Origin: Stakelama pacifica
Lineage (GTDB): Bacteria > Pseudomonadota > Alphaproteobacteria > Sphingomonadales > Sphingomonadaceae
DNA length: 64,000 bases
Direction of reading: 5' to 3'
Assembly: GCF_004361835.1 (NCBI RefSeq)
Contig: NZ_SNWD01000004.1
Location: 186,001-250,000 of the forward strand
Positions 35,999-39,810 of this stretch are shown here, in pieces; the first letter of the stretch is position 1, and the number at the start of each line of letters is the position of its first letter. The notes beneath the pieces are model-generated. The model saw only the letters and a list, made by a program, of their open reading frames with translations, ran no database searches and was not told the origin of the DNA. The position numbers and the translations under genes are program-made.

Positions 35999-38347
35999 TT
36001 ATCCTTCAATCCGCGAGAAATCGGCAACATTGTGCACCGCAGCGCGCATCCGGGCAAGCAACGCCAGCCGGGACTTGCGCTTTTCCGGGACAGAGTCGTT
36101 GACGGTGACGCTTTCGAAGAAATCGTCGATCGGCGCGCGAAGGCTGGCCAGCGCCGCCATCGCGCCCTCAAAATCCTCGCGCTCGATCGCTGCTGCCGCC
36201 TGCGGTTCCGCGGCATCGAGCGCAGCGATCAGCGCCGCCTCTGCCGGTTCGGGGGTATAGGACAGCGGTGTAGCGTCCCCGAACGTCGCTGCGGCGGAGG
36301 CCGCAGCCGCCTCGTTTTCGTCGCCAGCGGCCCCGGCCTGCGCCGGGGCGACCGGATAGTCTTCCTTCTTCAGAATATTCGCCGCACGCTTATACCCGGC
36401 GAGCAGGTTCTTCCCGTCCTCGGTCGTAACGAACGCCTGCAACGCCTTCACCCGCGCGAGCAGGCGAACCAGATCGTCCTCCCCGCCCAGCGCAAACACC
36501 GCATCGATCAGGTCGTGCCGGACGCCAGCTTCGCGCTGCTGGACCTTGAGGCGATCGGCAAAGAAATCGAGAATCTCTGACACCAACCGGTCTACGCCGT
36601 CGTCAAAGTCTGTTTCCTTCCACTCACTTTCTTCTCGGCCTTCAAGGCGTTCCGATATCCGACGGGCAGCTGTTGCCATAGTTTCAATAGCTTCACGCAC
36701 GTTCGGAATGACAGCGACCGAAATCACCGCCTCGCGTAAAAGTTTCTCAAGGTGAACACGCAGCCCGCCTTCCGTGACAAGGCGTATACTCGAAATAGCA
36801 GCACGCCGGAGAGCGAAGGGGTCTTTCGATCCGGTTGGTTTTTCATCGATTGCAAAGAACGCCGCAATCGTATCCAGCTTATCCGCCAGACTGACCGCGA
36901 CCGTTACCGGTGCGGTGGGCACATCGTCGCCCTGCCCGACCGGCTTGTAATGATCGCGGATCGCTTCGGCGACGCGGGCGTCTTCGCCCTGCGCGGCTGC
37001 ATAATAGCCGCCCATCAGCCCCTGAAGCTCAGGAAACTCCCCGACCATGCCGGTGACGAGATCAGTCTTGGCCAGCTTCGCCGCGCATTCGGCCAGCGCC
37101 GCGAGCTTTTCCTGCTCTTTGTCATTCCCGCGGACGCGGGAATCCAGAGCCTCGGGCGACTCCGCCTGATCGCTCTGGGTCCCCGCTTTCGCGGGGATGA
37201 CGGTTGCGGACGAACCGACAATCCCTTCTTCAACCAGCCAGCGGGCAAGCTGCGCCACGCGCTCGACCTTGTCCGCCACGGTGCGCAGCTTTTCGTGGAA
37301 CACGATCTTTTCGAGGTGGGGGCGCAAATCCTCCAGCTTCGTTTGGCGATCGGTTTCGTAGAAGAAACGCGCATCCGAAAGCCGCGCGGCAAGCACCTTT
37401 TCATTGCCCGCGACAATCTTGTCCCCGCCATCCTCGGCATCGACATTGGCGACGCAGATAAAGGCGTTGGCGAGTTTGCCGTCGCCATCCTCGCACACAA
37501 AATATTTCTGGTTCACGCGCGCGGTAAGCTGGATCACTTCCGGAGGCACCTCCAGAAACGCCTCGTCGAACCGGCCGAGCAGCGGCATCGGCCATTCGGT
37601 GAGCCCCGCATTCTCCTCCAGCAGGCCGTGATCCTCGATCAGCGTCAGCCCGGCACCCTGCGCCGCCATCTTGGAACCCAGCGCGATGGTGTTCCGCCGC
37701 TCATCCTGATCGACGATGACATGCGCCATGCGCAGCTTTTCGACATAATCGCCCGCCGACCCGATCGTGATCTGCCCCGGATGGTGGAAGCGATGGCCGA
37801 GCGTTGCGCTGCCCGATTTGATGCCCGCAATCTCGCAATCGACGACATCTTCGCCCAGCAGCGCGATAATGCCCTGCAACGGCCGTACCCAGCGAAGGCT
37901 CTCGGTCGAGCGTGACGCTTCGCCCCAGCGCATCGATTTGGGCCATGGGAAAGCGCGGATGACTGTCGGGATCGCCTCGGCCAGCACCGCCTTCGTCTCG
38001 CGACCCGGCGTGTCGATGACCGCGAAATAGGTCGCGCGGCCCTTTACCTCGCGCACCTCAAGCTGGTCGCGGGTGACGTTCGCCTTGCGACAAAACCCCT
38101 CGATCGCTGCATCGGGTGCGCCTTCGGGCGGGCCTTTCAGCTCTTCCGACACCGCCTCGGTCGCCAGCGGCAGGCCATGCGCGATCAGCGCGAGGCGGCG
38201 CGGCGTGGCGTAGCTCGTGTAGCGCTCCGCCTTCAGCCCCGCCTTTTCCAGTTCGGCGGCGAACAATCGCTCCAGATCGGCGCGCGCCTTTGCCTGCATC
38301 CGCGCAGGGATTTCTTCGCAGCGCAGTTCAAGAAGGAAATCGGTCAT
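35999..38347 (-). CDS. glyS: Glycine--tRNA ligase beta subunit
   Basis: A 782-residue beta subunit of the tetrameric bacterial GlyRS, which binds tRNA-Gly. It begins [32 protein letters not shown] and holds the HD-like domain (ARLSDARFFYETDRQ) and a C-terminal anticodon-binding domain (AREAGVRHDLIDAVFALGGEDDLVRLLARVKAL). The length exceeds the usual ~690. Two insertions are repeat-derived: residues 383-409 (VIPAKAGTQ...SRVRGND) come from an 81-bp family D palindrome, and about 666-675 (VAPAQAGAAG) from half a family B element. The frame stays open. The ATG overlaps the stop of the DUF559 gene (ATGA). Confidence 0.96.
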   Translation of the reverse strand: MTDFLLELRCEEIPARMQAKARADLERLFAAELEKAGLKAERYTSYATPRRLALIAHGLPLATEAVSEELKGPPEGAPDAAIEGFCRKANVTRDQLEVREVKGRATYFAVIDTPGRETKAVLAEAIPTVIRAFPWPKSMRWGEASRSTESLRWVRPLQGIIALLGEDVVDCEIAGIKSGSATLGHRFHHPGQITIGSAGDYVEKLRMAHVIVDQDERRNTIALGSKMAAQGAGLTLIEDHGLLEENAGLTEWPMPLLGRFDEAFLEVPPEVIQLTARVNQKYFVCEDGDGKLANAFICVANVDAEDGGDKIVAGNEKVLAARLSDARFFYETDRQTKLEDLRPHLEKIVFHEKLRTVADKVERVAQLARWLVEEGIVGSSATVIPAKAGTQSDQAESPEALDSRVRGNDKEQEKLAALAECAAKLAKTDLVTGMVGEFPELQGLMGGYYAAAQGEDARVAEAIRDHYKPVGQGDDVPTAPVTVAVSLADKLDTIAAFFAIDEKPTGSKDPFALRRAAISSIRLVTEGGLRVHLEKLLREAVISVAVIPNVREAIETMATAARRISERLEGREESEWKETDFDDGVDRLVSEILDFFADRLKVQQREAGVRHDLIDAVFALGGEDDLVRLLARVKALQAFVTTEDGKNLLAGYKRAANILKKEDYPVAPAQAGAAGDENEAAAASAAATFGDATPLSYTPEPAEAALIAALDAAEPQAAAAIEREDFEGAMAALASLRAPIDDFFESVTVNDSVPEKRKSRLALLARMRAAVHNVADFSRIEG
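36327..36353. repeat. Family B half-element inside glyS
   Basis: GCGGCCCCGGCCTGCGCCGG at 36327-36346, continuing into GGCGACC. It matches one arm of the family B elements at 16454 and 48332. It is read in frame on the minus strand as VAPAQAGAAG, inside an Ala/Glu-rich linker of GlyS. Confidence 0.75.
37121..37201. repeat. Family D palindromic repeat inside glyS
   Basis: An 81-bp palindrome from GTCATTCCCGCGGACGCGGG to CCCCGCTTTCGCGGGGATGAC (last 20 of the latter shared by the family), with inner GGAATCCAG and CTGGGT marks. It is exactly 27 codons long and is read as VIPAKAGTQ...LDSRVRGND. A fragment of the same family lies at 56905-56930. Confidence 0.85.
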
Positions 38348-38817
38348 CCTTCCTCCCCGGCACGGGGAGGGGGACCGCCAGCCGCAGGCTGGTGGTGGAG
38401 GGGGGCGTCCGCAAACGCAACAATAGCTTCAATCACCTGCTCTATACCGTCCAGAATTTCCTGCGCCCTTATGTGCAGCACGCGATAGCCATTCTCTTTC
38501 AGGAATTGATCGCGCATCGCATCGAACGCGGCCCGCTGCGGAACATCATGCGACTGACCGTCAACCTCGATCACCAGTCGCGCCGAGACGATATAGAAAT
38601 CCGCCACATAGGGACCGATCGGATGCTGTCGCCGCACTTTCACGCCCGCCTGAGCGCCGCGCAAGCGCTGCCATAAAAGAACTTCAGGCAACGACATCTG
38701 GCGCCGTAACTTTCGTGCCGTGGCAGTTTCCGGGCGCAGCGATCGGCGCGAGCCCCCTCCACCGCGCCTTGCGCGGTCCCCCTCCCCGTGCCGGGGAGGA
38801 TGTGACGATGCCATCAT
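38344..38817 (-). CDS. DUF559 (Vsr-like) endonuclease-domain protein between glyQ and glyS
   Basis: A 157-residue protein whose core (about 35-135) is the DUF559 domain, a PD-(D/E)XK/Vsr-like nuclease fold: [43 protein letters not shown], and [21 protein letters not shown]. The presumed metal ligands are Glu in PEVLLW, Asp in VADFY and Glu/Asp in IEVDG. The start (38817) overlaps the glyQ stop and the stop overlaps the glyS start, each by 4 bases. The first ~25 residues ([17 protein letters not shown]) and last ~18 ([17 protein letters not shown]) are encoded by inverted copies of palindromic repeat C. The function is unknown. Confidence 0.85.
38350..38402 (+). repeat. Family C palindromic repeat, left copy
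   Basis: CCTCCCCGGCACGGGGAGG forms hairpin 1; ACCGCCAGCC-GCA-GGCTGGTGGT forms hairpin 2; GGAGGGGG follows. It encodes the C-terminus of the DUF559 protein and touches the glyS start codon. It is inverted relative to the right copy at 38752-38801. Confidence 0.85.
38752..38801 (-). repeat. Family C palindromic repeat, right copy
   Basis: On the minus strand it reads CCTCCCCGGCACGGGGAGG, GGGACCGCGC-AAG-GCGCGGT, GGAGGGGG. Hairpin 1 is identical to the left copy. Hairpin 2 differs in sequence but keeps base-pairing. It encodes the N-terminus of the DUF559 protein. Confidence 0.85.
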
Positions 38818-39707
38818 ACGCTCCACCCCGGATATTTGGCTTCCCATTCGGGGGTCATTTTCTCGATCCAGGCCTGGCAGCTTCCTTTCGCAAGGTCGCG
38901 CACACGGCCCATATAGGCCTGACGCTCAGCGACGGAGATCACGCCGCGCGCCTGTAACAAATTGAAGATATGGCTTGCCTCGATCGCCTGTTCATAAGCG
39001 GGAATGGGCAGCTTGTTGGCGAGGCAGTTCTCGCACTCGGCCACCGCTTTTTTGAACAGGTCGAACAGCGCGTCGGTATCGGCGATCTCGAAATTCCATT
39101 TCGACATCTGCTTTTCGTTTTCGAGGAACACGTCGCCGTACGACACGCCCGCATCGTTGAAGGCAAGGTCGTACACGCTGTCGACGTCCTGAATATACAT
39201 GGCGAGGCGTTCCAGCCCGTAGGTCAGTTCGCCCGCGACCGGTTTGCAGTCGAACCCGCCCATTTGCTGGAAATAGGTGAACTGGGTGACTTCCATCCCG
39301 TCGCACCACACTTCCCAGCCAAGGCCCCAGGCCCCCAGAGTCGGGCTTTCCCAGTCATCCTCGACAAAGCGAATGTCATGTTTCGTAAAGTCGATGCCGA
39401 TCGCGGCAAGGCTGCCGAGATACAGTTCCTGAAGGTCGGCGGGGCTTGGCTTCAGGATCACCTGATATTGATAATAATGCTGCAACCGGTTCGGATTTTC
39501 CCCGTACCGCCCGTCGGTCGGGCGGCGACACGGCTGTACGAACGCGGCATTCCACGGCTCCGGCCCCAATGCGCGCAGCGTCGTCGCGGTGTGGAACGTG
39601 CCCGCACCGACGCGCATGTCATAGGGTTGCAGGATCAGGCATCCGCGCTCGCTCCAATAATCATGGAGGGTCAGGATCATGCGCTGGAAACTGGGGGCGT
39701 TGCTCAA
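38814..39707 (-). CDS. glyQ: Glycine--tRNA ligase alpha subunit
   Basis: A 297-residue catalytic alpha subunit of bacterial GlyRS. It shows [82 protein letters not shown], the class II core, and the [19 protein letters not shown] motif. The start is inferred as TTG at 39707 ([10 protein letters not shown]), with AAAAGG about seven bases upstream, since most GlyQ have several residues before SFQ; the first ATG is at 39680. It is separated from glyS by the DUF559 gene. Confidence 0.95.
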
Positions 39708-39810
39708 CGAACTGCCTTTTCGCCTTACGAAAACCAATAGTCTTTGCCGGGCTTTGGAACATGCGCGTCGGGGAATCAAGCGGCGCGCTAGGCACGCTTC
39801 GGCAGCCATG

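Follow-up and report, generated by a model that had tools for sequence, protein, structure and literature searches.

In Stakelama pacifica, a gene of the nuclease family DUF559 (PF04480) lies between glyQ and glyS, the essential genes for the two subunits of glycyl-tRNA synthetase, and is bracketed by inverted palindromic repeats. The locus is part of a stretch of 64,000 nucleotides (contig NZ_SNWD01000004.1, positions 186,001 to 250,000; hereafter the window). It raises the question of how a nuclease gene came to stand in such a place and what the repeats have to do with it. We find that the feature is very likely one copy of a mobile unit of about 450 bases with the DUF559 gene as its core. 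We also consider it probable that it belongs to a family of minimal mobile units, each consisting of one DUF559 nuclease gene between inverted, matching palindromes of the triplex type, in which the nuclease would nick the ends.

The DUF559 gene and its bracketing repeats

The features of the locus are listed by window position.
35999..38347, minus strand: glyS, host gene, glycyl-tRNA synthetase beta subunit (PF02092, E 6.1e-186)
38344..38347, minus strand: ATGA overlap of DUF559 stop and glyS start (sequence)
38344..38817, minus strand: DUF559 (PF04480) nuclease gene, with the ATG overlapping the glyQ stop taken as start (Pfam E 2.4e-28)
38351..38378, plus strand: gene-stop arm of the 28-nt perfect inverted repeat, with hairpin 1 at 38352-38370
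38374..38396, plus strand: hairpin 2 of the gene-stop end, different in sequence, pairing kept
38397..38404, plus strand: third arm of the gene-stop end, mirror of the 3' arm of hairpin 1
38753..38760, minus strand: third arm of the gene-start end, mirror of the 3' arm of hairpin 1
38761..38777, minus strand: hairpin 2 of the gene-start end
38773..38800, minus strand: gene-start arm of the 28-nt perfect inverted repeat, with hairpin 1 at 38781-38799
38814..38817, minus strand: ATGA overlap of glyQ stop and DUF559 start (sequence)
38814..39716, minus strand: glyQ, host gene, glycyl-tRNA synthetase alpha subunit (PF02091, E 7.8e-145)

A first-pass annotation of the window had placed the DUF559 gene between glyQ and glyS with ATGA overlaps at both ends. 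The profile match (98.6 bits against a curated Pfam cut-off of 20.6) and the sequence bear this out. The open frame runs from 38344 to 38847 and thus extends past the start at 38817. The annotation had also described inverted double-hairpin repeats on both sides of the gene core. They are present, and include a pair of 28 nt (38351-38378 and 38773-38800) that is 100% complementary. Each end also carries a third arm that had been missed, and the order at each end is hairpin 1, hairpin 2 and, nearest the gene, the third arm. Hairpin 1 has the same sequence at both ends, and hairpin 2 is unlike yet paired at each, as previously noted. Folded as single-stranded DNA, the ends reach -19.3 and -19.5 kcal/mol (z -3.1 and -3.9). 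The repeats fall within the DUF559 open frame. In the predicted structure, the protein core has high confidence, and the repeat-coded first 30 residues have a predicted local distance difference test score (pLDDT) of 50-57. The nearest named relatives of the gene are from sphingomonads. The sole other DUF559 match in the S. pacifica genome is likewise bracketed by a related hairpin in inverted orientation. The S. pacifica hairpin itself occurs a third time, unchanged, in frame within a uvrD-like gene (L005, 1501-1519), and the alignment of the encoded protein to E. coli UvrD is broken at residues 484-521. Two inverted palindromes also lie in frame within glyS (37120-37202); we take them to resemble the CGTC-tagged class of repetitive extragenic palindromic (REP) sequences.

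DUF559 genes elsewhere were compared with controls from their own loci. An inverted-repeat score of at least 14 between the 200-bp flanks was reached by 103 of 111 DUF559 loci and by 8 of 947 same-locus control windows (L071 was omitted for its short flank). Among Pfam-picked loci from the S. pacifica genome and its genus, the figure was 30 of 32. Chance in GC-rich sequence as the source of the brackets is ruled out by the within-locus controls. A finder for the full repeat grammar was applied to 160 distinct DUF559 units, which remained from 174 matches after removal of identical cores and short flanks and omission of L218-L226 (E. coli, Neisseria). The motif was found upstream of 128, inverted downstream of 122, at both ends of 104 and at one end at least of 146. 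The control windows gave 14 and 9 of 463, and the motif in opposite orientation occurred at 46 and 42 of the 160 units. Loci L048-L127 were chosen by likeness to the S. pacifica protein and the remaining loci are the best-scoring Pfam matches; therefore, these bracket rates may be inflated. In three Caulobacter genomes with 15 DUF559 matches, the motif lies upstream of 12, downstream of 14 and on both sides of 11. Three DUF559 genes were seen in Caulobacter vibrioides G308 (L319, L322 and L325), two bracketed on both sides and one downstream only. Among other units, L042 has a foreign palindrome nested within its repeat, and three from one genome (L135, L335 and L336) have far longer inverted ends, two of these copies being 86% identical over 589 bp.

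The annotation had further stated that the repeats encode the termini of the gene itself. This holds for S. pacifica and for 72 of the 104 doubly bracketed units, in which both repeats are wholly within the open frame, but not for all units. An in-frame ATG stands ahead of the upstream hairpin in just 44 of the 105 frames containing that hairpin, and the repeat-coded tails therefore need not always be made.

The unit ends are laid out as an arm, an anti-arm, often a second hairpin, and then a mirror-image third arm. The third arm is closer to a mirror than to a direct repeat of the 3' arm in 131 of 217 asymmetric stems and the reverse is true in 19, which disfavours a plain direct repeat. Judged by sequence, the grammar of the ends is that of the BoxC/PIT intrastrand triplex motif as set out in PMC4666352. 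Among second loops of 12-45 nt the stem is longer than in shuffles in 148 of 162, a C(GNA)G loop is found in 96 of the 121 second hairpins whose stem is perfect over 5 pairs or more, and the same loop is found in 53 of 75 distinct second hairpins (controls, 37 of 5588 hairpins). As related copies are not independent, the evidence is weaker than these ratios make it look. GNA loops form unusually stable mini-hairpins in DNA, according to PMC4686876. Therefore, the structure would matter as single-stranded DNA, and the loops suggest that the unit ends may function in that form. The two ends differ in hairpin 2 in 61 of 63 units; in 51 of the 63, each of the two stems has at least 5 pairs.

The repeat sequence tracks the DUF559 subfamily, across chromosomal sites too. 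The hairpin 1 distance is 0.09 between the ends of one unit and 0.28 between units, and for 96 of 104 units the other end of the same unit is among the closest tenth of hairpins. Protein distance and hairpin distance are correlated (Mantel r 0.63, n = 104; within the genus alone 0.56, n = 37; P 0.001). When the two units of a pair come from different chromosomal sites, hairpin distance also grows with protein distance, its median going from 0.15 to 0.33.

Scattered copies, gene-less pairs and empty sites

One Caulobacter genome holds four copies of the unit at unrelated sites. Two of them are 97.57% identical over 535 bp, with edges that coincide with hairpin 1. Outside these edges, the ungapped identity is 23-32%, about chance level. 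The two further copies are 85-88% identical to that pair and to each other, and all four lie directly after the apparent stop codon of the upstream gene (by eye). It is close to certain that the Caulobacter copies move or have moved. Exact matches to the cognate hairpin number 56 in the same genome (control, 0). Fifteen gene-less inverted pairs were examined there; they are 219-254 bp long, with ends that match the DUF559 unit. In the genus of S. pacifica, 17 gene-less pairs of about 100-150 bp were examined and have the same kind of ends. The gene-less pairs far outnumber the DUF559 genes.

The 160 DUF559 units fall into 65 site groups, 52 of which hold one unit. The largest group, with 39 units, is at pntA-pntB; the names pntA, pntB, yqeY, dnaG, IS110, portal and terminase were read by eye off translations, and glyQ and glyS were confirmed by profile. 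Six Caulobacter units (L093, L094, L096, L098, L112 and L126) have a common site between terminase-like and portal-like genes, which by eye are of the phage or gene-transfer-agent type.

The annotation had proposed a search for clean empty sites at glyQ-glyS, and these exist. Of the 58 genus genomes with a glyQ match, 57 were taken and 56 were readable (L228, unusable, and G007, with its glyQ piece at a contig end, were omitted). The junction is exactly empty, with a 4-base overlap of the two genes, in 20 of the 56. Gaps other than this overlap, of at most 35 bases, are seen in 8; a DUF559 unit is present in 4 and a gene-less pair in 5 (L190, L196, L214, L227 and L253), and the remaining junctions have other spacers. 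The exactly empty sites rule out an ordinary fixed operon gene. Such a gene had been expected to occupy the same place in all relatives, with DUF559 genes elsewhere unbracketed, and neither is what we found. Quite different spacers, several with other palindromes, were observed in L189, L191-L193, L197-L199, L215 and L216. The glyQ-glyS junction may be a general insertion hot spot. In the protein tree, six glyQ-glyS units sit among pntA-pntB units, and a single origin of the glyQ-glyS units is marginally rejected (approximately unbiased (AU) test, p 0.041); both results come from a short alignment in which many branches are weak. The unit occupies yqeY-dnaG in 6 of 30 loci, both genes having been found in 26. 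There, L306 keeps a single hairpin where its relative L297 has the whole unit, likely a loss by recombination.

Units of the S. pacifica kind very likely move or have moved. The brackets, empty sites, scattered copies and gene-less derivatives uphold the proposal of a small mobile unit that is laid out like REP sequences with their REP-associated tyrosine transposase (RAYT), with a nuclease of another fold. The proposal that the unit keeps the host operon translated fares less clearly. It bears on the tight junctions, and most gene-less pairs at glyQ-glyS retain the ATGA bases too; selection on the host genes may explain their retention.

DUF559 matches range from 0 to 10 per genome within the genus. 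In 61 genus genomes, which are related and not independent, DUF559 number goes with repeat number (Spearman 0.71; reversed-pattern control 0.24). The repeats number 2-11 per genome in four genomes without DUF559 and 42-256 in the 16 with at least five DUF559 matches. In E. coli the DUF559 gene is ycjD, which stands between sapF and fabI with triplex-grammar motifs beside it; most of the ycjD locus is present in 3333 of 5426 genomes. In the listed E. coli sample, from which the plasmid record H99 was omitted, the median is 13 repeat places with ycjD (n = 37) and 4 without (n = 22). In E. coli, ycjD presence follows lineage (PMC12817139). The comparison is therefore confounded, and E. coli was rejected as a clean population test. 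Three ycjD-less strains examined have a resistance-nodulation-division (RND) efflux operon in its place, which is eef, placed by lineage according to PMC12817139.

The enzyme, its proposed action and rival explanations

Ten residues are invariant in 46 DUF559 sequences, that of S. pacifica included (L092, L096, L103, L107 and L123 were left out of the alignment for stops in the stretch). R48, E55, W59, Q74, D83, E94, H100 and D109 are among the invariant columns and are putative active-site residues. The predicted structure matches gonococcal NGO0050 (3hrl; Z 15.4), I-Bth0305I (3r3p; Z 13.3 over 95 residues; Foldseek E 5e-4) and Vsr (1cw0, Z 11.6; 1vsr, Z 10.9). The median ratio of nonsynonymous to synonymous substitution rates (dN/dS) is 0.09 for 36 pairs from a single site group; comparisons among the four Caulobacter copies give ratios of 0.14-0.40. 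These low ratios indicate that the DUF559 gene is kept by selection. A defence-system library gave weak matches only (best E 1.1e-4), and 3 of 50,697 phage records had a DUF559 match. Outside Pseudomonadota, matches are present in, for instance, Cyanobacteria and Deinococcus.

Other movers were considered. Twelve genomes were searched for Y1 transposase at E 1e-3; seven gave no match, and six of these seven have 140-256 repeats. The motif was on both sides of the Y1 gene in none of the 8 Y1 loci scanned (L393, a piece of the same gene as L387, was omitted). On these results, a Y1/RAYT transposase is rejected as the necessary mover. The L378 unit (positions 301-809; 509 bp) is bracketed by repeats but has, in place of DUF559, a different small frame, by eye a membrane protein. 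In Caulobacter G310, an IS110-like frame of 346 aa is found within repeat pairs at three sites (L383, L384 and L385), in the hairpin 2/third-arm region.

DUF559 as the mover is the best-supported reading of these data, with the ends as the predicted substrate of its cutting. The loop type and the mirror arms suggest that the ends would fold on single-stranded DNA, for example during replication. A nuclease of the matching subfamily may recognise and nick its own end structure, as the co-variation of the two suggests. The freed or copied unit would presumably be re-inserted by break repair, with no constant target duplication and often between genes. The gene-less pairs, which have the same ends, may spread likewise with the enzyme supplied in trans, and recombination between the palindromic ends may leave a single hairpin, of which one case was seen. 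The glyQ-glyS copy of S. pacifica would then be an insertion at a repeatedly hit junction, where the retained ATGA could let both host genes work. With less assurance than for the family itself, we incline to the wider view that these units form a class of transposable elements. Its sole protein would be a nuclease of the Vsr/EDxHD fold, its ends would be intrastrand-triplex palindromes with GNA mini-hairpins that act on single-stranded DNA, and it would be the missing source of the BoxC/PIT/TM repeats and of their gene-less inverted pairs in Pseudomonadota, including those at E. coli ycjD.

Three other explanations were weighed. The closest fold with a known activity is that of a homing endonuclease, and glyQ-glyS was apparently entered more than once (the AU result above). 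The units might thus spread in a homing-like manner, the nuclease cutting empty chromosomal sites and homologous or microhomologous repair copying the unit, with the repeats as homology tracts or cut-resistant ends instead of transposon ends. We regard this as unlikely, as copies sit at unrelated sites with about chance identity outside the unit, gene-less pairs far outnumber the genes, and the mirror arms and GNA loops would be left unexplained. Similarly doubtful is the idea that DUF559 is a passenger or a domesticated gene within repeats that owe their movement to host recombination or to a different enzyme. The different small gene of the L378 unit and the IS110-like frame within repeat pairs at three sites speak for it; against it, hairpin sequence tracks DUF559 subfamily, and the Y1 search gave no match in 7 of 12 genomes and no bracketed locus among 8, other transposase families not having been searched. 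A role for DUF559 in mismatch repair of the Vsr type, coupled to a cytosine methylase and with regulatory or incidental repeats, is very improbable. The fold is common with Vsr, and in Caulobacter the absence of the methylase ScmA brings on a DNA damage response that depends on the DUF559 protein VsrA (PMC12907096). However, matching inverted repeats, copy edges at a hairpin and gene-less derivatives are unexpected of a repair gene, as is a range of 0 to 10 genes per genome within one genus.

Several points weigh against movement of these units by the DUF559 nuclease. The case for both mobility and cutting by DUF559 is drawn from sequence. No target-site duplication was constant by eye among the Caulobacter copies and the gene-less pairs. 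No nuclease of the Vsr/EDxHD fold is known to join strands, and host repair must therefore be assumed. Because several sites are common to many species, as with the 39 units at pntA-pntB, much of the spread of the units is old and vertical. The bracket rate is lower phylum-wide, where a draw of 30 loci had the motif at one end at least in 24, at both ends in only 12 and at neither in 6. The L378 unit carries a gene other than DUF559, and the repeat looks like a target for the IS110-like frame, which complicates the simple picture. A 30-genome tree yields six independent pairs, most of them in agreement with the association of gene and repeat number but too few for significance. In E. coli, the repeat places number only 4-5 in two records whose ycjD locus is diverged.

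Significance and relation to known systems

A published link between DUF559 and these repeats was not found in searches of the open-access literature, and as far as those searches show, DUF559 is the first candidate enzyme for repeats of the BoxC/TM grammar. BoxC/PIT-type repeats are widespread in bacteria and have no known means of spreading; with a matching nuclease gene inside such repeats, their spread becomes testable in laboratory Caulobacter and in E. coli K-12. If the proposal is true, it would extend the REP/RAYT mode of existence to a further class of enzyme, point to a function for the uncharacterised family PF04480, and give VsrA-dependent DNA damage in Caulobacter an alternative interpretation.

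Among structurally related proteins, NGO0050 of Neisseria gonorrhoeae is a solved DUF559-like structure with no assigned function, and a DUF559 gene in a gonococcal record has related repeats around it. I-Bth0305I shares the EDxHD fold with DUF559. It is the homing enzyme of an intron and is not known to have palindromic ends or gene-less derivatives; unlike a homing endonuclease, the DUF559 units are not confined to one allelic site. Vsr endonuclease also has the fold in common, but is a mismatch-repair enzyme and is not known to be mobile. Insertion sequences and their miniature inverted-repeat transposable elements resemble the units in having terminal inverted repeats, copies at unrelated sites (as in Caulobacter) and gene-less derivatives with matching ends. 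They differ in that the S. pacifica unit is without a known transposase domain and no constant target duplication was seen.

In its layout the unit works like REP/RAYT. In REP and REPIN systems, described in part in PMC3733652, inverted palindromes likewise bracket one gene, solitary inverted pairs occur, and the repeats are numerous alongside the gene. However, the only gene of the S. pacifica unit is DUF559, whereas RAYT is a Y1 (HUH) transposase; no GTAG tag is seen by hairpin 1 at either S. pacifica end (by reading), and the ends of DUF559 units carry a mirror third arm. The unit is not a member of this system because the defining Y1 enzyme is absent. CGTC-tagged REPs are also palindromic, form dimers and have copies inside genes but are another sequence family; PMC3733652 reports them mostly from Alphaproteobacteria and without a dedicated transposase.

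The ends have the grammar of the BoxC/PIT/TM repeats, which in PMC4666352 share the arm, anti-arm and mirror third arm, many copies per genome and inverted pairs. The S. pacifica repeat departs from the E. coli BoxC consensus given there, CCCTCNCCCN3-6GGGNGAGGGN3GGGNGAGGG, and has shorter arms and a hairpin as its second loop. That 2015 survey of intrastrand triplex repeats reported no mobility activity beside the E. coli sites, and its main text has no word starting with nuclease, DUF or Vsr and no ycjD. In E. coli, copies of the repeat adjoin the DUF559 gene ycjD.

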